Shown piece by piece: positions 52 to 63,517 of a DNA stretch of 64,000 nt; positions within the stretch are counted from its first letter, which is position 1, and every line of letters begins with the position of its first letter. The notes beneath the pieces were generated by a model. It was not told the DNA's origin, did no database searches, and saw nothing but the letters and a program-made list of their open reading frames with translations. The translations under genes were made by a program, and so were the position numbers. Source of the stretch: Gyrodactylus bullatarudis (taxonomy: Eukaryota; Platyhelminthes; Monogenea; Gyrodactylidea; Gyrodactylidae); NCBI GenBank assembly GCA_012064415.1, contig SSNU01000075.1, forward strand, positions 576,844 through 640,843, in the 5' to 3' direction.

Positions 52-104
52 GGCATGTATCACACTGATGAGTATGCCCGAAATAAAGGCCTTATTTGTG
101 AAAA
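52..104 (+). ncRNA. hammerhead-like ribozyme motif, copy S
   Basis: The core CTGATGA lies at 65-71 and GAAA at 80-83. Helix I pairs TCACA (60-64) with TGTGA (97-101), a perfect 5 bp. Helix III pairs ATAA (83-86) with TTAT (92-95), which supplies the required A-U pair. The predicted cleavage falls after U96. Between the core boxes are exactly eight nucleotides, GTATGCCC, which do not form a normal helix II. Their ATGCC (74-78) is complementary to GGCAT at 52-56. The core layout matches type I hammerheads (established); activity is inferred. Confidence 0.6.
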
Positions 105-489
105 TCTTGGCATCACTTTCTTCTTCTCTCTATAAAATTTGCTCCTTCTGCGTTCTTCCTAATTAACCCTCCATGTCTCAAATTATTTTTTTTATCACAC
201 AAATGAGAAAATTTGCAACCTAACCAAAATAATTACGTTGATTCTGAATCTGAATTCCTTTTTGAAAGCCGAATTATCATTTCATAGATAAAAGAGGTTA
301 AAATTGACATTTTTGTTTTAAAAAAAGTTATCTTCTAACTATAAGAGATATCGAGCAGGTGAATACATATTTGAGATTTACAACTATTTTTTTCTAAGAC
401 CTCAGCAAATAGGTTTTCAAAAAAACGTTCTAAATATTTTTTAAATATTTGACAACATTTTCAAAAAATCACCCTTCTTCAAGTAACTA

Positions 490-4123: not shown

Positions 4124-4179
4124 GCCGGTGTAATAGTCTGATGAGATCCGGTATATAAGCTTAATCACTAAATATTCAC
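4124..4179 (+). ncRNA. hammerhead-like motif, degenerate copy C1
   Basis: CTGATGA is at 4138-4144. Helix I is TAGT/ACTA plus an outer GTG (4128-4130) / CAC (4177-4179) around an internal loop. The predicted site is AATC/ACTA, after position 4166. The GAA of the GAAA box appears deleted, so this copy is probably inactive. The eight-nucleotide helix II segment, GATCCGGT, has CCGG complementary to CCGG at 4125-4128. Downstream sequence is shared with the foldback element at 29.5-29.8 kb. Confidence 0.35.
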
Positions 4180-4534: not shown

Positions 4535-4584
4535 TAAAGAGATAAGCGCTATATTTCAGGCATACTCATCAGTCTTTACATGCC
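4535..4584 (-). ncRNA. hammerhead-like ribozyme motif, copy D
   Basis: Read on the minus strand: GGCAT (4584-4580), then TAAAGA (4578-4573), CTGATGA (4572-4566), GTATGCCT (4565-4558), GAAA (4557-4554), a helix III of AUA-AG/CU-UAU with one bulged U, the cleavable C at 4541, then TCTTTA (4540-4535). Helix I is a perfect 6 bp, TAAAGA/TCTTTA. Its sequence differs from copy S (TCACA/TGTGA) while pairing is kept, so the two copies covary. The loop ATGCC is complementary to the upstream GGCAT. This is the best-preserved copy in the window. Confidence 0.65.
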
Positions 4585-4735: not shown

Positions 4736-4968
4736 AGTGTGTACAGACATGTTTGTAGTTTTTTTAAATTTTTCATACATATGATTGATAGGAAATTAAT
4801 AGTATACATTTAATATGTTATTTATGATTAGATATTACAGTTTATATAGTTGATTTTTTACAATTTACAAATTCATCATTGGCTGTAGAACGAAGTTAAG
4901 GTAGTTTGAACCGCTGTCTTGCTACGTTTGGATTTTTCAGTCTTTTCACCATCGTTCCATTTCTGTCT

Positions 4969-6240
4969 TTACTTAATTAGTGGTTTAGGGATCACTAATT
5001 GTTGCAAAAATTTCTTTTGGACACATAAGCTGGGTTGTTCTTTTAATATAAAGGTGGCTTCTGCAGTCTTGAGGCTGTGATGTTTTTCCCTGTTTGTCTG
5101 TTTGTATAGAATTTCAAAGTTTTTTGGGGAAACTTTTTCGTCACACTCCTTCAAGTGGTCCCTTATTGCAGTATTACCTGTGTTTAAATGTTCTGTTACT
5201 CTGTCTTCAAGCCTCCTTGTGGTATGGCCTATATATTCAGCACAACAAAAGCATTTGAACTTGTACACAGCATACGATTCTGATAACGGGTTAGGTCTGT
5301 CCTTCGTAGTATTGGAAAATAATCTTTTGGTTTTGAACACAAATTTTACATCTAGTTTCGGAAAGGTTGAGTTGTACCATTGTCTGATCCTAGATTTTGT
5401 TGTGTCAGCCAGGACGTCATCTTTAAACGGTAAGAGCACTGTTATGTTGTTGTCTACTTCTTTTTCATTCATGACTGTCTCTTCTCTTCCAACTATATTG
5501 TTAAGAAACTCTTCTGGATACTTGTTCTCCATGAAGATTTTCTTTAAGTTTTCTTTTTCATCTGCAAGGAATTCATCTGAGACGATTCTTTCTAATCTGT
5601 TGAATAAGGATTTAACCAATCCTATATTTGTGGACTTGGGTGGAAAAAAGAGTTGAAGCTCAGCAGCTTTCCTGTGAACGTTGATTTAAATCAGAAAATT
5701 TTCTAAAGATTTTCCTTAATAATGTACCATCCTCTTTTCTGCACAACAAAACTTCTAAAAATGGTATTTGGTCATTTTCTTCTGTTTCTAAAGTGAATTT
5801 GAGGCAATGGTGAGCACTATTAAACTTCTCCACTATTTCCTCCGGGTTGATGTCTTTATTCTCAATCATGAAAATATCATCAACGTATCTCCTGTAGATT
5901 TTGGATTTATCAATGGACTCCGCTAAAGGGCCTATCTCCAATTTGCCCGTGAATATTTCGGCCAGGATCGGGCCCAAGGGGGAACCCATTGCTACACTGT
6001 CTATCTGGACAAAGATCTTATCGTCAAACGAAAAAGTCACATTTTTGCAACATAATGATAGTAGTCGTTTGAGCAGCATTGGAGGGATTGGGAATCCTTC
6101 AATTTCTTTGGATATTTTTATAATGAAATCAACTGTTTCAATTAGGGGGACATTCGTGAACAATGACGAAACATCTAGTGAAATCATTCTTTGCGTTAAC
6201 CTCCTTGATTATCTCCACGAATTCATATGAATTTGCACTC
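4969..6240 (-). pseudogene. Penelope-like retroelement, decayed RT + GIY-YIG
   Basis: On minus, from about 6240 down to 4969, lies the C-terminal half of a Penelope-like polyprotein. The reverse transcriptase part (about 6187-5660) shows SLDVSSLFTNVPL (palm motif with the catalytic D), AMGSPLGPILAEIF and the YVDD catalytic box, then IPFLE. The second part (5619-4969) carries a GIY-YIG endonuclease signature (YAVYKF..C..EYIGHTTR). At least two or three frameshifts separate the pieces: near 6195, near 5665, and near 5635 where the thumb region changes frame twice. The N-terminal RT region is missing. The combination of RT and C-terminal GIY-YIG is diagnostic of Penelope-like elements (established). 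The copy cannot be autonomous. Confidence 0.85.
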
Positions 6241-11814: not shown

Positions 11815-12105
11815 AAAAAGAACGTCTTCGCATGGTATTGGCAATATTTTACGTTTCTTTTGAGGTGGCTTTAAACTAGATTCGATCCAGATATAATAGG
11901 AGAATTAGCAAGTTTCACAAGGTATAACATCTTTTACTGACAAGTCCAAAAGAGAACGAAACGCGCGTTTTCCAAATAAGTTTACTCAGAATATTTCTAA
12001 ATGCTTTGTGAGTTTCGGTGTGATCCATTACTAAACTGTAACATTCAGCGACATGACGTAATCCATTACCAAATAAAACGTTTCTTTTGGATAAATTACC
12101 TAGAA
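11815..12105 (-). repeat. degenerate copy of unknown coding repeat
   Basis: DNA-level similarity to 54900-55115 in the same orientation. Shared blocks include CGAAACGCGCG, TATTTCTAAATGCTTTG, CTGTAACATTCAGCG and TAATCCATTACCAAATAA. The 54.9-kb copy has an open frame of about 99 codons; this copy is broken. The family was not recognised. Its presence twice near other transposon debris suggests a mobile element. Confidence 0.5.
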
Positions 12106-14774: not shown

Positions 14775-17700
14775 ATGCATTTTTATCGTCAATTAATTGA
14801 AATTATTTGCAGTCAAGGTTTGGAAGGAATAAGCTTAAAACATTTCTGGGAACTTCTGGGAGATCCAAAAACTAACTATCCTCTTGTTATTGATGATCAT
14901 TCAAAAGATTTCATTTGGAACCATATTAAGGACTCCAACAAGATAGAAATATTCACTTATAATGGAAAGTTCAATGATTTTCCAAATTTTGATCGTAGTC
15001 AGCTACAAGTTACAAGGGACGGTTCTTCATTCTTTAAGATGATGGTAAATTATGATTTATTAATTTATCACAGGCAATTAAAGCAGAAAAAGTTAAAATA
15101 ATTAACAAAAATGGAATAATAGGATGTAGTTCAAGTTTTGAGAAAAGAAAGCTCATAACTTGCAAAGAATTCGTTAAAATGAATAGTGAACACAGAGAAA
15201 AGTAAGTCATCAATCAAAGTAATTCCTCCAAAGGATATCTGCATCAATAATTTTGGTTGCCATTCAATCTGAGCGAGAGAAATATCTCTTAGGATCGGTC
15301 ATGAAACTAACTGACATTGGAATTAATGGTTATTGTATTCTGGAACTTATCACTAGAAGTCGATATAATGGAATTACATCTTGTGGAAATTTCAGTCTAC
15401 TAACTCATGGCTTCTCATCAAGCACAATGCATTTATGTCGAAAAATTCTCTCTTCAAAAGGATTGATATTTATTCAGCCGTATTATGAGAAAAAAAGTTG
15501 CAGCGATGATGCTCAGTTCTCTATTTTATTTCTGCACTATAAATTTAGACATGTTTTCCCCTACTATCCAGCTATTCTACTTGAAAAGATTACTCTTCAT
15601 CTCTCAGAAATGCCTTTAAAAGCAGATTACCGTATCTCGTTACGCAAAAGATTCAACATGAGTAACAAGTTTTCTCATTCATTATTTTCATATGCAAACA
15701 GACTTGGGATCCTTGAAAAACAGACTGATACAATCTATAATATCATTAAAGTCATGCATCCAGATGTTCATGATGACGATGAAATTGATAAATTAATTAA
15801 ACAGTTTAACGAAAATTTCTCTGCCACTGCTGATGATAGTGACAGTGAAAAGGTGAAAGAAAAACCAAAGAAAAAATCTAAAAGCAAAATAAAGCCTTCT
15901 GACCAATGTCTAAAATCTTGTGTCTGGAAATTGGTCAATACATTTAGCTATACTCAGTGGGAGAAAGATTGTCTTGAAACTCAAGATAGTAAGCTTAACT
16001 TCTACATAATAAAAAATGAAAAGCATAAGAGAATCAACACTTGTTTTAGATTCTTGGAATACTGATGACTTGCCAGAGTTGAAATTCAAAGCAAAACGAA
16101 CAGGCGGAGAAGGAGACTTTGAAGATGAAGACGAAGATGATGAACTTGATGAAAAAGACATTAGCTACATTGCTGGTACAGCGAAGGGAGCCGGTGTTAA
16201 ACATTGCTCTAGTCTGAATCTTTGGAAAAAGTTTGGGGGTGAGTGTGCGATATCTGTCTGAACATAGCATCCGAGAAAAAATTCAATCAATCCAAATTTT
16301 TTTAGTTATTCCAAAGTTGAATGCTTTTGATAATGTTATTGATCAAATCTACAACTTTATAAGTGAAGAAGGTCCATGCTCAGTTAACTACATTGCCAGA
16401 GAGTTTAGCCTTGATATAGCCTGGCTGCGAAAATATCTCCATACTCTAGTCAGCAAGAAGAGGGTAAAGGGTGTTAAACGTGTATTTGGCAATTCTTCAC
16501 CATACTTGTGAGTTTTACTTTAACAACAAATCTCCTATTTGGAAATATGTAAGAAAGAGATATATTTAAAATCATATACGTATTTCTCAAAGCAACATCA
16601 GTGGCATTGCTTAAAAATTATAAAAGTTAAAAGATTCATTCAAAATGTAATAATTTACAAATAATGAAAGAAATAGTAAAAGATGAATAAAATTAGAATG
16701 TAATATGTAAGCTGAAAAAAACACCAAAACTCTCCAATAAATAGCAACAGTGGAGAGAAAAGTGAAAAAAGCTCACATAGGCCAGGGGAGTTGAAGGTTA
16801 TAAGAGTAGTTTTTTTGAACACATAGATTGGGTTTGTAAAGATTAATAAAGAATTTCTCTTTAACCCATACATCTATACTGTCGTCTGGATTTTTGTATA
16901 AAATGGAAAAATTTGAAACTTAAGCAGCATGTTTCTCCTGTTTGATATGACTAGTTACCGCAGTGTCCTTGTTCAGATGATCGTCTGATCTTGTCATTTT
17001 TATAAGCAATACTACTGATGATGCTTTTAGAAATACGTATATGGTTTTAAATATATCTCTTTCTTACATACTATTTCCAAATTATGAATTTAAGTGGATA
17101 GTCGGACGTTTTTGGAAAAACAACGTGAATTACTCATTCATAAAAATCTCCTATGGTATTCATAATTCATAGCATCAAATTGAGATATTTTATTGTCCTT
17201 CAAGATTTTAAAATTGTATTCATAAATGTGTTATTACTATTTCAGCTATGAAGTTATGGAAGAAAAGTCCAATAAGAAGAAATCTGAAAATTGTGAGTCT
17301 ACATTTGGTATTTTTACAAATTCAATTTACACGTCCAGCATCTCAAACTCAACTCGTAATCAATTTTTTGTATTAATTTAGGATATCAATAAGTTTTAAC
17401 ATGGTATAAAATTAAAAGAAAACTCCGCCAAAGAAATCAAAAAAAACTAAAGTATAGAACACGAAGCAAAATTTTGAACCTATTCAACATTAAATTAAAA
17501 AATACTGTTCCTTAATTAACTTTCAAAAATAATAGATGATAGGTCGTATATATAAGCCAAATATGTATGTGATATATCCATTAACCTCCCTCCCTATTAT
17601 TTCTCAAGTATCTCAGCGTCAAATTAGAGGCAACACTGTCATTGAATGTCTCAAGGAAAATAATGGAGCCTGTGAATTTTTCGGGATTCGTCGTTATATA

Positions 17701-26700: not shown

Positions 26701-29700
26701 TTACAAAATTTCCACACTGTATACACTACCCACTTGGTCTACGCAGTTTATGTGAGTTTTTACTAATGGTCTCTAGTCTTACACAGAAATATTTTTAAAA
26801 GTGTATTTGAGATTATTCAAATGACTTTTTAAATAAACTTGATTCCTAGATAATATTTTCCAACATTGGCGGTGGAAAACCCTTGGGAAACCTTTGTAAT
26901 TACAGTATTCTTTATCTTCCATCAACCTTACCATAATTTCAATTGAAATGTTTCTATGATATTCTTTCCTATTTGACATAGAAAAAAATATAGACCAAAG
27001 GTATAAACTTTCATGACGCAGGCTATTTTGTAAATAATCAACCCGTTTTTTTCATTTATCTTTTCTCGAATTGAAACAATTCTACAACTATATATCTTGA
27101 CTAATTCGAATTACTTTTTTTTCCATACACTTGGTTAGTTTTATTACATTAGTTATCCGGATGTTTGATAAAAGAGTCTATCTTTTCTAGCCAAGAGAAT
27201 GAAGTTGAGTAAAAAGTTGAAAAAGGAAGATTCAGAGTCAGAAACCTCCATTGCCTACTCAAGTGATGAAAACCAGTCCGATCATGAAGAGGCAGAAGAG
27301 GAAGAAATCAACGATACCCTTAAAGATTGTGAAGAGGAGGAGGAGGAGGATGATGATCTAGAGGCCATTAACATCATTCGACCAGGTGGTCGTCTTTACG
27401 AACAGAATAGAACTCAAAATAAAATTCGGCGCAGTCGAAGGATTGATAATCTCATCAAATTAACTGGGGGAACAATATCTGCTGTAAGTGAGAAAAAGGA
27501 TGTAAAATACCAATAAATTACTCTATTTTTCCATATTTTAGACTATCGATAAAGCTGTCGAAGGACAAAAGTCATGTCTGCTAAATCAGATTGATGAAAT
27601 GTACTATAAAACCATTGAGACAATTATATCAGAAATCACAAATTCTCACATTGACTGGTCTCCTGCCATTTCCCTTTCCACAACTCAATCGAATAATTTG
27701 GTTAAAGATGACTCTTGTGAACTAAACGGTGTAGACGAACTATTAAAGAAATCTGAAATGAACAACTCGTTGAAAGATGTTGAATTGAAATTGTCAACAT
27801 TTATCACTGAAGGTTATGAACTTGGCAAGACTGGAAAGAATATCCTGGTACGAGCTTGAATTCAAGTTCTAGTTAAAATTATCATTTATTTATTCTTTTT
27901 TAATAATCAAGGACGCCTTTGGTTATTCTGAGAATCTTCTCGCAGCCTTGGAAAGTCTTGTCGCCAAAAAGGTTGTTTATGAGGTTGGTGTGGAAGAAAA
28001 GTTATTTGTTTCCTCAGAATACTTGAGATTATGGATTATCCATCTAAAGGAAACCACTCAAAAGAATTGCACAAAGAGGTAAGTAAACAAGTTTGATCTG
28101 CTTACCTAATATGGATTCTAAGAAGAACCCCCCCCCCCACTTACTTTGAAATCAAAATAATTTCCACGACAAAATTCAAAAAAAATGAAAATCTTTCTTT
28201 TTTCTCCTCGAACGGTTAAAGGGTACCTTAGTTTTTGATTAAAAAAGCCATTTGAACTATTGAAGCTTATTGATATAAAGCTTAACATTTGAAGAAAAAA
28301 AAATCTGAAAAAATGGTCTTTTTTTTTGTTAGACAATATTTATTTAAAAATAATTATATACAAAATAAATTCAATGTTATCTGGATAAGTTGGTAATAAA
28401 TAAATTCAATTTCAGAAAAAAGGTTTCATAAAAGAAATATAAAAAATAGCATAATGACTAAATAAGCCCTTCTAGAAATTTCACTAGATCATTCTGGAAT
28501 TATTGAAGATAAAGTAGACTTTTTGTATAATCTAATTTAGATCTAATATGCAACATGATTGCCTTAATATTGGTCAAATCATTGCATTCTGATATTTTAA
28601 ATTTGTTTTCAATCATGTTATATGTAGATAACAAATAATGATTGGAGAAGGAGGAAGATCTAAGATTATATGAATTTTCAAAAATTTTGGCTGATTTTAC
28701 AAAAGTTTTTGTAATTATTGCGTATTTTTCAAATTTCGATTTGACGTCATATTCCCTTTTATTGAACTTAAAGCTGAGAATTTTACACTTGCAATATCAT
28801 TTTTTTCATTAATTTCAGTTACAGTATAATAATAGACTGATGTTTCATTTTAGATTAGTTTCTTTGAAAAACCAAATCTTCTTTTAGATCACCCTATCAC
28901 TTTCAAATCAATAAAAATTTTCAGCTCAAAATTTAAATGAATGATCATTTGGTGTCAAATCTTATTTTCTGATTCTAATGAACTATTCGTTAAGAGGATT
29001 TAGAAGACGAGTGAATATTTAGTTATAAAGCTTATATTTCACTGGTTCTCATCAGACTATTACACCGGCTAGATATATATAGCAAAATGTTTGAAAATCG
29101 AAATCCTCTGATTGGTTCTTTTAATTTGTAGTATTGAATGAAAGGGGGGCCAGGGTTGATGGCTTGTATCCATGATCATTGCTTTCTTTTTACGTATCTG
29201 TCCAATGTTGGTTGCCCACTCAGACTTTTACGTTTTCTACCTCTTTTACCATTTGCAGGTGCAGCCTTTTTCACATTTCCGATACTGCTAATTATTGGTT
29301 GAGAACTAATTCGATTATCAACTACCGTTGACTTTTCTGTATTCGCACTTTCATTCTCAATCATAAATTTTGTTGGGGCAGAAGATTGGAGTTGATTATA
29401 ATGAGACGTAATTTCAACTACTTGCTCTTTGGGTTCAATTATAATTGAGTAATAATTATTACTCCGACTTCATTTCCATTTTGTTTCTGAGTTGAACAAC
29501 ATTACGCAACCAACATTGGACAGATACGTAAAAAGAAAGCAATGATCATGGATACAAGCCATCAACCCTGGCTCCCCTTTCCTTCAATACTCCAAATTAA
29601 AAGAACCAATCAGAGGATTTCGATTTTCAAACATTTTGCTATATATATCTAGCCGGTGTAATAGTCTGATGAGAACCAGTGAAATATAAGCTTTATAACT

Positions 29701-31244
29701 AAATATTCACTCGTCTTCTAAATCCTCTTAACGAATAGTTCATTAGAATCAGAAAATATTTTCGAAGTAGCTCGGCAATACTTCCCAAAAAATCTTATTT
29801 TGAAAAGTAGCCGTTTTTTTCTTCAAATATAGTAAAAGGTTTTTTTTTGTTGGATAAAACCTTATATTGAAATATAAAAATAAAATAAATGTAAGTTAAT
29901 CTGATCAATAGAATGAAATAAATCTGGATCTTGTAGTTTTTTTTCAAATGTTGTAAAATAAATGGCAATAAAATGAGTGAAAAGGTATAAACATGATCTG
30001 AATTCCAAAAAGTCTACTGTATCAAATAATAATTCCAGTTAACATAGTTAACTATAGTTCTATTAATAATGATTTATGTGAAAGATAATTTGAATTCATT
30101 TCCCATCCAGACAAGTCTCTTCAAATGCACCCAAAGACTACTATTTCATCCCAGAAGTTTGGCTTAATGAATACGGCGAAGTGTTGCCAAAGTTAATCAT
30201 ACAAATGTTCATTGTGGTCATGTCAGCTATCACGAATAATGCCGGTATCGACGTGCTCTCTTTGGGTCGTCAATTCTCTCGTCTAACAACTCCCTATTCC
30301 ACCTATAAAATTGTTTGTGTGAGTTTTCCTTCCTCTCTCAAATTTCCTTCATTTATGTAGACAATTTTACTCATTTTATTTTTATTCTAGTACCTTGAAC
30401 GACTGGGCTGTGTCAGCATGAAATATCTCCATAGCAATCAGAAAACAGGTCTCTTCGCCAAGGTTATCATTAAAGAATTCAAAGGTAAAATTTTAATAGC
30501 GTACAGCTGTTCTCAATGATTTTAGAAATAATAACGAAACAACTCTTTTTGGAAAAATCTTTAATTTTCGAGTTGGTGCGATTTTTCCAGTTTTTTTTAA
30601 ACTTTGAGTTGAAAATTTTTTGACAGGGATCAAATGTCATTTCTCAAGATCATCATTAGACAAAGAAACCAATTATCTCTATTTAGTTTTTGAAAGAATC
30701 TGAATTTTGAACTGATCTCGGATCCTCTTTATTTATTTATTCTCAGACAGTAAATATAGTCGAAAAATAGGTAGTAGAATTGTCTTTTGAACCATTCTCT
30801 CTGCTAGAATTACAACTTAAAAATAGGATTCATAATCTCTTTTGAAGAAACAACGGGGTTGAATTGATTCTGATGAATCAAAAATTTCTTAATCAAACAA
30901 GTTTGAAAATGCCTTTTTGAGTCCACTCGATTGTTGGGGATAATCTACCTTCATTACCCTCTCAATTGATAAATTCACACATTTTATTTTTACGAATATC
31001 TCTAGGCTCTCTGGTCACTTTAAATTTGCCTTCTTATTGATTCATTCATAAGCTAATCTTCGTTTTAATTATCTTTTTAGATTTCCCTGTGATATTTGGA
31101 AATTTTGATTCAATATTCATTGAACCCCGAACCCATTATCAACTTCGTCTGCACGTATTCATAAAACAGATGGTCCAACGATTCAATATTCCTCTGGAAC
31201 TATATTTACCCCGGTTTAAAATCAACGCTAAAAATAGCTATTAA
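14775..31244 (+). CDS. GTF3C1: general transcription factor IIIC subunit 1 (TFIIIC220)
   Basis: Encodes the largest, B-box-binding subunit of TFIIIC, which recruits TFIIIB and Pol III to tRNA genes in the nucleus. Exons: 14775-15044, 15074-15201, 15234-15988, 16024-16238, 16306-16507, 17246-17292, 17543-17829, 17962-18345, 18432-18866, 18927-19104, 20017-20825, 20888-21035, 21867-21940, 22013-22117, 23066-23354, 23817-24055, 24795-24941, 25298-25312, 26046-26288, 26489-26558, 26616-26639, 26681-26751, 26850-26895 (tentative), 27191-27483, 27542-27847, 27912-28078, 30111-30318, 30391-30484, 31081-31244. Phases agree throughout. About 2,135 aa, like the vertebrate protein. Recognisable parts are the N-terminal winged-helix B-block region (ILSSKGLIF), the extended winged helix VDRKSFQRIV-like MDRKSFQRIV segment, acidic linkers (27.2 kb), and the C-terminal EPRTHYQLRL. 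The 17293-17542 intron end and a possible 12-nt exon at 25904-25915 are uncertain. Confidence 0.9.
19105..20016 (+). other. long intron of GTF3C1
   Basis: A 912-nt intron in a gene where most introns are below 90 nt. AT-rich, with imperfect ATATGATAT runs near 19570-19680. No coding or mobile-element signature was recognised. Other long introns (21036-21866, 22118-23065, 24056-24794, 25313-26045, 30485-31080) likewise show no supported content beyond small dispersed-repeat pieces. Confidence 0.5.
23355..23816 (+). other. GTF3C1 intron with dispersed-repeat piece
   Basis: The donor GTAAGC at 23355 was preferred over reading on to the stop at 23377, because joining to TTCAAG/ATTCC at 23817 keeps the frame and the conserved protein. 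Within the intron, about 23545-23600, is a copy of the AAATCAATAAAAATTTT dispersed repeat also seen at 28.9 and 52.5 kb. Confidence 0.55.
28885..28945 (+). repeat. dispersed repeat, TTTCAAATCAATAAAAATTT family
   Basis: Shares TTTCAAATCAATAAAAATTT plus flanking GATCAC and TCAAA blocks with 52465-52520. Related pieces are at 23545-23600 (+), 55165-55205 (+), 8566-8612 (-) and about 62405-62455 (-). The family type is unknown. It directly abuts the foldback element in the GTF3C1 intron. Confidence 0.55.
29011..29065 (-). ncRNA. hammerhead-like motif, copy C2 (left arm)
   Basis: Minus-strand CTGATGA at 29055-29049, eight nucleotides GAACCAGT, then GAAA at 29040-29037. Helix I is TAGT/ACTA with an outer GTG/CAC. 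It is the mirror copy of C3 in the right arm, so the transcript of either strand would contain one ribozyme motif and the complement of the other. The long arms could sequester both. Confidence 0.5.
29176..29364 (-). CDS. 62-codon ORF in foldback element, basic C-terminus
   Basis: The open frame starts MIENESANTEK and ends with a basic segment, GKRGRKRKSLSGQPTLDRYV. The RGRKRK run is AT-hook or nuclear-localisation-like. A diverged relative of this segment is encoded on minus near 39245-39300 (RKRKSLSDQP), in an otherwise non-coding region. Conservation of the peptide at a second site suggests it is, or was, part of a mobile-element protein. It overlaps the left inverted arm. It could be the C-terminal fragment of a larger lost protein. 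Confidence 0.35.
   Translation of the reverse strand: MIENESANTEKSTVVDNRISSQPIISSIGNVKKAAPANGKRGRKRKSLSGQPTLDRYVKRKQ
29653..29710 (+). ncRNA. hammerhead-like motif, copy C3 (right arm)
   Basis: CTGATGA at 29666-29672 and GAAA at 29681-29684. Helix III is AUA(U)AA/UUUAU with the closing A-U pair, and the predicted site is after A29697 or A29698, before ACTAAA. Helix I is TAGT/ACTA plus outer GTG/CAC across an internal loop. The eight-nucleotide segment GAACCAGT contains ACC complementary to GGT at 29655-29657. Confidence 0.5.
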
Positions 31245-63195: not shown

Positions 63196-63460
63196 AAGAT
63201 AAAAAGAAAATAATTAGTTAAAACATTGATATGATACAAGAGACTGGCATATATGAAATTTAAAAAATAAAATTGATTAGTTAAAAATTATCAGAAGCCG
63301 ACGATGAACTGAGGATCAAGAATTTGAGGACCTCAAATAGACAGAAAAATAATTTGAACGAAAAAATACAAAAATAGTCGAACTTCATCAAGAATATCAT
63401 TGTTGGTTTTGAGCCCTTCCATTGGTTGATATTGCATTGTAATAATATTTAAATGTTAAC

Positions 63461-63517
63461 CAGGGTAGAGTCTGAAGAGACCCGGCGAAATATAACGTTT
63501 ATCACTAAAATATACGC
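63461..63517 (+). ncRNA. hammerhead-like motif, copy C4
   Basis: CTGAAGA (63472-63478, one change from consensus), then GACCCGGC (63479-63486), GAAA (63487-63490), helix III AUA(U)AA/UUUAU, and a cleavable C at 63503 before ACTAAAA. The loop ACCC (63480-63483) is complementary to GGGT at 63463-63466, a different sequence from the other copies. Helix I is only AGT/ACT here. The U-to-A change at the core makes it probably inactive. Confidence 0.4.

Follow-up and report, generated by a model that had tools for sequence, protein, structure and literature searches.

The DNA examined here is a 64,000-nucleotide stretch of the genome of the monogenean Gyrodactylus bullatarudis (contig SSNU01000075.1, positions 576,844 to 640,843; hereafter the window), which carries several copies of a hammerhead-like ribozyme motif, CTGATGA-N8-GAAA. 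Our covariation analysis revealed that the eight-nucleotide loop N8 pairs with a short leader located 5' of stem I, and the evidence for this pseudoknot helix is strong; stem II is reduced to one base pair (bp) or none. About half of the motifs in our local sample lie beside coding sequence of Penelope-like elements (PLEs). We consider it probable that the motif is a self-cleaving, type I-like hammerhead of the PLE pseudo-long terminal repeats (pseudo-LTRs), whose stem II of 0-1 bp has been rebuilt as the leader pseudoknot and which processes PLE RNA. The initial annotation of the window had described a hammerhead-like core with covarying helix I in dispersed repeats, a description supported by the genome-wide count and by the covariation in one of the motif families (family C); the absence of stem II and the pairing of the leader are features beyond it.

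Core motif, stem I and stem III

The genome searched for the motif comprises 77.3 Mb in 471 contigs, the window included, and is the one animal genome that the motif searches covered. It contains 3021 exact CTGATGA-N8-GAAA cores (1476 and 1545 by strand), compared with 32 matches to a reversed control pattern. With one mismatch allowed, the window holds 12 core matches against a mean of 3.48 and a maximum of 9 in 100 shuffles. A chance origin of the motifs is ruled out by the shuffle counts for the window and by the reversed control for the genome. The elements of the hammerhead type I core (C3UGANGA9, G12AA and A15.1-U16.1) are present in the copies as the search pattern required; the weight of this prescribed core lies in the 3021 matches versus 32 in the control, and its conservation was independently gauged only by a small count of one-mismatch copies. 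Loops of nine and ten nucleotides (N9 and N10) gave 565 matches genome-wide versus 123 for the control, so that the N8 loop is dominant, not absolute. The loop GTATGCCAC occurs in 24 of the 100 N9/N10 matches listed, and two copies of this longer N9 subfamily form an outward-facing inverted pair (C98:507849-507868, minus strand, and C98:508079-508098, plus strand).

Copies for alignment were sampled from 100 listed of the 3021 places, from which 20 ten-kilobase stretches were fetched. Another 80 short stretches were added, 48 from the core list and 32 from a list of N8 loops starting with A, by which unusual N8 sequences were partly favoured. Ten loci with an N8 starting with C were fetched as well, and of eight core-list loci two were used (L001 and L004). 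After removal of copies with fewer than 30 nucleotides (nt) upstream, of N-containing copies and of identical ones, 144 exact-core copies were kept. A filter demanding at least 4 bp of stem I adjoining the U-H site and A or T after GAAA was passed by 87 of them, and 57 were dropped. Alignment A1 consists of 62 rows with distinct leader and loop, and alignment A2 of 42 distinct rows whose stem III is as long as in the C family. The leader played no part in any filter.

In the C family, stem I is paired in 93.8% of alignment cells, a percentage raised by the 4-bp stem I filter, and four of its five pairs show two-sided change; this open-ended stem is therefore both paired and covarying. Stem III of the same family is paired in 99.2% of cells, with two of three pairs invariant. 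Since stem III is only 2-3 bp long and palindromic, a stable hairpin in the monomer is doubtful. Among 58 exact-core copies having either stem I of at least 4 bp with the full pseudoknot or stem I of 5 bp, the nucleotide before the predicted cut, H17, is T in 46, A in seven, C in five and G in none, in agreement with the NUH rule of hammerhead cleavage sites. In the 87 filtered copies the counts are T 62, A 16, C 8 and G 1, the single G standing at an off-register offset.

Stem II and the leader:N8 pseudoknot

N8 has room for at most three stem II pairs. In A1 these three pairs are formed in 29.6% of cells versus 35.8% after shuffling, and this below-shuffle pairing gives an ordinary stem II no support. 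Pair 10.1-11.1 taken alone is formed in 58.1% versus 41.9% shuffled (4 of 500 shuffles as high), being U-A, G-C or G-U in 36 of the 62 rows.

The pairing partner of N8 is the leader: its columns 3-8, located 14 to 9 nt upstream of the core, form pairs with positions 8-3 of N8. This pairing occupies 79.0% of the 372 cells in A1 versus 50.4 +/- 2.0 shuffled (0 of 500 as high), with two-sided changes in 111 cells versus 38.7 and a covariation score of 0.693 versus 0.211. When the partner was slid by 1-3 columns, at most 60.2% of cells were paired, the score was 0.262 at most, and neither the pairs with two-sided change nor the pair types outnumbered those of shuffles. Full pairing at five positions is seen in 31 of 58 distinct leader/loop combinations (mean 8.59 and maximum 19 in 5000 shuffles); when the stem I filter was omitted, the figure was 39 of 109 (shuffles mean 9.7, maximum 20). 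The fixed register accommodates 14 different complementary 5-mer pairs, G-U counted, among them GGCAT/ATGCC, CCGGT/ACCGG, CAAAG/CTTTG, TAAAG/CTTTA, TTATG/CATAA, TGAAG/CTTCA and AAAAG/CTTTT. The pseudoknot is paired in 86.5% of cells in the C family (42 rows) and has mostly five bp in the A and B families. Distinct copies that have a stem I of at least 4 bp form all five pseudoknot pairs in 30 of 58 cases, and those without it in 9 of 51, which indicates that the two helices tend to survive or decay jointly. A Watson-Crick helix thus links the stem I side with the stem II side, the defining property of pseudoknotted hammerheads. RNAfold, which allows no pseudoknots, was applied to five copies and folded the leader with N8 in three of them (L058, L019 and L024).

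The history of these changes was reconstructed by parsimony on a tree built from the flanks only of 50 C-family copies. On this tree the pseudoknot underwent 14 two-sided compensatory changes, compared with 1-5 in slid registers, along with eight one-sided (G-U) changes and two pair gains. Pair leader 2 x N8 7 was further examined genome-wide with the remaining leader and loop bases fixed. The matched combinations TTAAAG/CTTTAA (T-A), TCAAAG/CTTTGA (C-G) and TAAAAG/CTTTTA (A-U) occur 226, 212 and 36 times, in total 474, and the mismatched combinations T-T, A-A and C-A occur 3, 6 and 6 times, in total 15, with the three other off-diagonals, including the T-G wobble, left out of this count. The exchange is also seen inside single stem I contexts. 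The context AGAGACCA has at least three T-A copies (100 of the 226 being listed) beside many C-G copies, and one C-A copy is listed. The context TGACACTA has at least two T-A copies beside 36 A-U copies, with one mismatched copy in one of the three mismatch searches and none in another. Three leader:N8 patterns had no match in viral contigs, a collection that need not include animal genomes.

Copies in the window and their element context

The copies of the motif in the window and the neighbouring PLE remnant are as follows.

52..56, plus strand: leader GGCAT of copy S, the 5' pseudoknot strand; its partner is ATGCC at 74-78, and this pairing class covaries in the sample
60..101, plus strand: hammerhead motif of copy S, with stem I formed by TCACA 60-64 and TGTGA 97-101
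65-71, 72-79 and 80-83, plus strand: CTGATGA, N8 and GAAA of the copy S core
95 and 96, plus strand: U16.1 and H17 of copy S, with the predicted cut after 96
4580..4584, minus strand: leader GGCAT of copy D; its partner ATGCC lies within N8 at 4558-4565
4535..4578, minus strand: hammerhead motif of copy D, with stem I formed by TAAAGA 4573-4578 and TCTTTA 4535-4540
4566-4572, 4554-4557 and 4541, minus strand: CTGATGA, GAAA and H17 of copy D
4882..6208, minus strand: PLE remnant with reverse transcriptase (RT) and GIY-YIG matches (tblastn), 310 bp from copy D
5660-6208, minus strand: RVT_1 match in this remnant (E 1.6e-6; 28.5 bits, slightly short of the curated cut-off, 29.6)
4969-5685, minus strand: weak GIY-YIG match in this remnant (E 0.043; 14.6 bits, below the cut-off of 22.6)
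28963..29758: inverted-repeat element holding both B-family arm copies, with arms 28963-29215 and 29506-29758 (98.8% identity)
29018..29069, minus strand: B-family copy of the left arm, leader GCCGGT 29064-29069, pseudoknot with 5 of 6 pairs
29049-29055, 29041-29048 and 29037-29040, minus strand: CTGATGA, N8 and GAAA of the left arm copy
29652..29703, plus strand: B-family copy of the right arm, leader GCCGGT 29652-29657, pseudoknot with 5 of 6 pairs
29666-29672, 29673-29680 and 29681-29684, plus strand: CTGATGA, N8 and GAAA of the right arm copy
63460..63509, plus strand: B-related copy with core CTGAAGA 63472-63478 and leader CCAGG 63460-63464
63479-63486, plus strand: N8 of the B-related copy, in which CCCGG faces leader CCAGG (4 of 5 pairs)
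17001..17047, plus strand: C-family copy, leader TATAAG 17001-17006, core 17015-17021
17022-17029, plus strand: N8 of the C-family copy, TGCTTTTA, with 5 of 6 pairs
16569..16615, minus strand: C-family copy with A9 changed to T (core at 16601), probably dead
4124..4175, plus strand: B-family copy (core at 4138) lacking GAA of the GAAA core, with leader GCCGGT 4124-4129 and N8 GATCCGGT both present

All five copies named in the initial annotation were located where it had placed them. The core is exact in those at 65 (plus), 4572 (minus), 29055 (minus) and 29666 (plus), and the copy at 63472 (plus) reads CTGAAGA, a change that sits at N7, the single free core position. The helix I pairs that had been proposed (TCACA/TGTGA, TAAAGA/TCTTTA and TAGT/ACTA) were found as well. 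By hand, leader pairing is complete (5 bp) in the copies at 65 and 4572 and has one mismatch in those at 29055, 29666, 17015, 16601 and 63472. The Rfam hammerhead covariance models, suggested as a check of the family, gave zero matches to the window copies even at an E-value of 10. The earlier reading thus holds for the core, for helix I and for the link to Penelope and fails for an ordinary hammerhead, stem II being absent or 1 bp and N8 being engaged in the leader pseudoknot.

A hammerhead with a stem II, distinct from the studied motifs, is present at 11931-11977 (plus strand), where Rfam Hammerhead_1 scores 32.1 bits (gathering cut-off 34). Genome-wide, with 73 of 11180 candidates scored, this model has at least 57 matches, of which 29 exceed the cut-off. 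At locus L100 a Hammerhead_1 match of 32.4 bits (C126:43052-43090, minus strand), reading CAGACGA with U4 changed, begins some 70 nt downstream of where a C-type core starts on that strand; it may be a nested insertion.

The Penelope remnant that had been reported near copy D is real: it contains the RVT_1 and the weak GIY-YIG matches and lies, by tblastn, 310 bp from copy D. In many of the 20 ten-kilobase stretches, motifs flank open reading frames (ORFs) with RT and GIY-YIG features. The ORF of L018 (481 aa) matches RVT_1 (E 2.6e-14) and GIY-YIG (E 4e-5), both over the cut-off, and the ORF of L026 (813 aa) matches RVT_1 (E 5.7e-9), again over the cut-off. The closest named relative of the latter is a Dicrocoelium protein (35% identity over 94%), and rotifer proteins share 28-34%. 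In the fragments of L011 and L016 no family exceeded its cut-off, and L016 was taken as a PLE by eye. L026 has one motif 67 bp before and one 171 bp after the ORF, both on the strand of the ORF, and L016 is arranged alike with motifs 69 and 121 bp from its ORF. The 5' motif copy is inverted in L018, L009, L011 and L024, and in L019 the arms of an inverted repeat hold PLE coding sequence with outward-facing motif copies. These arrangements fit PLE pseudo-LTRs.

Proximity was counted for 55 motifs (CTGANGA-N8-GAAA followed by A or T) from the window and the 20 stretches, with PLE coding sequence recognised by tblastn. Within 1 kb of such coding sequence lie 27 of the 55, as expected of a pseudo-LTR location. 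Many outward-facing inverted motif pairs had suggested terminal inverted repeats of a DNA transposon; this reading was rejected because PLE ORFs lie in several of the intervening stretches and, in L026 and L016, directly repeated copies flank an ORF. The proposed link to mobile elements is therefore upheld for PLEs, to whose pseudo-LTRs the assignable motifs belong, and not for retrozyme-like tandem repeats: TRF found no retrozyme-like short tandem arrays in the window, the sequence to which it was applied, and a retrozyme identity was discarded on this ground and on that of the 27 motifs flanking PLE coding sequence.

Several smaller observations concern the same elements. The B-family pair at 29055 and 29666 flanks a 97-aa ORF (29176-29469, minus strand), whose C-terminus resembles by eye that of the L016 ORF, and one further feature of the window is likely a PLE remnant. 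On the outer side of the left copies in L009 and L011, a GGTAGCTCAGCTCAAA-like sequence following two A-family copies is reminiscent of a tRNA A box, and two adjoining ORFs at L021:2091-3453 (minus strand) have the appearance of a piggyBac-type transposase with a cysteine-rich end; both are impressions only.

Proposed mechanism, alternatives and relation to known hammerheads

Catalytic activity of the motifs is a prediction from sequence, and a likely one. In order, the RNA would read leader (5-6 nt), a spacer of about 3 nt, 5' stem I strand, CUGAUGA, N8, GAAA, the short palindromic stem III, U16.1, H17 and 3' stem I strand. Within N8 a stem II hairpin would keep one pair at most, and N8 positions 3-8 would pair with the leader. 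The leader would run 5' to 3' away from the core, as the 5' strand of a normal stem II does, and the end of N8 would form the normal 3' strand beside G12. Because the polarity of the leader matches that of the missing 5' strand, the helix could take the place of stem II. The leader would then cross, by way of its ~3 nt, to where stem I ends on its outer side, and the first two bases of N8 would bridge the deep groove, leading from A9 to the distant end of the other strand. By this joint helix stems I and II would be held alongside each other, the role that a loop-loop contact plays in ordinary hammerheads. In A-RNA built from fibre coordinates, the short path is the one across the deep groove between the 5' ends, as in H-type pseudoknots. 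In our crude A-RNA model of 6 bp, phosphates at opposite ends are 10.4 Å apart across one groove and 21.8 Å across the other, a short path that two nucleotides should be able to span.

Cleavage after H17 in both pseudo-LTRs would release a unit-length PLE RNA with its 5' end tens of nt before the ORF; the L026 core starts 67 bp upstream of its ORF. The palindromic stem III (e.g., AUGUACAU) suggests that dimers may be used. Dimers have been reported for the newt hammerhead and proposed for PLE hammerheads (reviews PMC7761336 and PMC6155905).

A number of observations weigh against this mechanism. Six one-mismatch copies with both helices have their change at N7 in three cases, at G12 in two and at A14 in one, and under a looser filter N7 accounts for 3 of 12. 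One stem II pair may persist in the A and B families, since 10.1-11.1 pairs above shuffle; if it is kept, a one-base bridge would be strained (12.7 Å for 5 bp). The C family shows no covariation at the sixth pseudoknot pair (leader 1 x N8 8; UA 32, unpaired 10), so that base composition is what speaks for this pair there, and overall it covaries weakly, with its score reached by 37 of 500 shuffles. Many copies are decayed, five pairs being complete in the 39 of 109 distinct combinations given above, and the flank tree shows 29 pair losses, no fewer than the 23-25 in slid registers. RNAfold prefers other folds for L116 and L018, and in L019 and L024 its leader/N8 hairpin extends into the GAAA core. 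A second GGCAT downstream of stem I in A-family copies (window 109-113, plus strand; e.g., L018) could compete with the leader for the N8 bases, as a switch or as a relic; as a general downstream partner for N8 it was rejected, because it was seen by eye in A-family rows only and cannot account for the B and C families. Of the 55 motifs, 28 have no recognised PLE coding sequence within 1 kb and are solo, decayed or unrelated; when positions were drawn at random from the same stretches, 24% lay within that distance. In a lizard PLE, insertion in vitro was unaffected by hammerhead mutants, and no reads started or ended at the cut site (PMC11167929), which argues against a need for cleavage.

That no strand has been replaced at all is unlikely in our estimation. 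The 10.1-11.1 pair found above shuffle in 36 of 62 rows favours such a reading, and so does the longer subfamily with GTATGCCAC, which retains G...C ends; against it stand the missing support for a three-pair stem II and the 522 places genome-wide where N8 (with GAAAT) starts with A. C-family rows with such an N8 also end in A, so that no 10.1-11.1 pair is possible, and most of them keep the leader pairing. A conserved structured PLE RNA or DNA element, e.g., a protein-binding or reverse-transcription signal, that descends from a hammerhead and is no longer catalytic would be consistent with the many decayed copies and with the lizard results, and we regard it as improbable. H17 is G in none of the 58 exact-core copies (one of the 87 filtered copies, off-register), and stem I and the pseudoknot change in sequence yet stay paired, being kept or lost together. 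Leader complementarity as a mere by-product of the shared descent of a few families, with no helix behind it, is scarcely credible. The copies do fall into few families, and shuffling leaves their relatedness in place; slid partners retain the same relatedness yet fail, fourteen complementary 5-mer pairs (G-U included) occupy one register, two-sided changes occur inside the single stem I context AGAGACCA with TCAAAG/CTTTGA or TTAAAG/CTTTAA, and the three mismatched combinations are rare (15 versus 474 matched).

The proposed self-cleaving PLE hammerhead with a leader pseudoknot shares several traits with known systems; both hammerheads in PLE pseudo-LTRs and hammerhead pseudoknots are already known. 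Minimal type I hammerheads of PLEs and Terminons are said to have been described by Cervera and de la Pena in 2014, Luense in 2017 and Arkhipova in 2017. With these the present motif shares the type I order, the pseudo-LTR position beside an RT/GIY-YIG ORF, the very short or palindromic stem III and the tandem copies. The PLE hammerheads of the reviews lack helix III and/or tertiary loop contacts (PMC7761336, PMC6155905), and the lizard PLE ribozyme has stem II with loop II (PMC11167929). Unlike the PLE hammerheads of the reviews, the present motif has a stem II of 0-1 bp and a covarying leader pseudoknot, so that the described absence of a stem I-stem II tertiary contact does not apply. In the pseudoknotted hammerheads of Perreault et al. 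(2011, PMC3088659), a Watson-Crick pseudoknot docks stems I and II and is needed for speed in mutants, and stem II can likewise be one bp. Their tested case is of type II, with loop I pairing to a 3' tail beyond stem II, whereas in the repeated PLE copies studied here the partner of N8 is a 5' tail on the far side of stem I, and part of the C family has no stem II left. Displaced strands and a pseudoknotted core recall types SGC, CSG and GCS (Eckert et al. 2023, PMC10085705), of which type SGC joins stems I and II by a linker of typically three nucleotides. Unlike in those types, the block order here is the classic C-G-S and not a rearranged one, and only the 5' strand of stem II is displaced, cut off from CUGAnGA and placed 5' of stem I, contrary to what the block scheme in the same paper assumed. 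Metazoan retrozymes (Cervera and de la Pena 2020, PMC7229834) are also type I hammerheads dispersed in animal genomes; they are short non-coding tandem repeats, whereas PLE coding sequence adjoins about half of the motifs in our sample.

A hammerhead with stem II replaced by a 5' leader was not found in our literature search, and primary papers on PLE hammerheads may describe one. We tentatively propose a new connectivity, which may well hold and which we would not yet call probable, in which the 5' stem II strand has been relocated to a site upstream of stem I and CUGANGA is joined by two nt directly to the 3' strand of stem II. This arrangement would fall outside the six proposed block orders, would have been spread in hundreds to thousands of copies by PLEs and would be catalytically active. 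The reading lies between full strand replacement, for which the C family stands, and an extreme form of the known loop pseudoknot, for which the A and B families stand.

According to the reviews, PLE hammerheads are minimal, without tertiary contacts and of unknown role (PMC7761336, PMC6155905). The covarying pseudoknot, with 474 exact occurrences in three subtypes alone, indicates that these RNAs were kept folded, and probably active, by selection, so that their role in PLE replication can be put to the test. If the C family functions with no intrinsic stem II, it would be wrong to assume that CUGANGA must run straight into stem II, and hammerhead searches based on models would miss such a class, as the Rfam models match none of the window copies.
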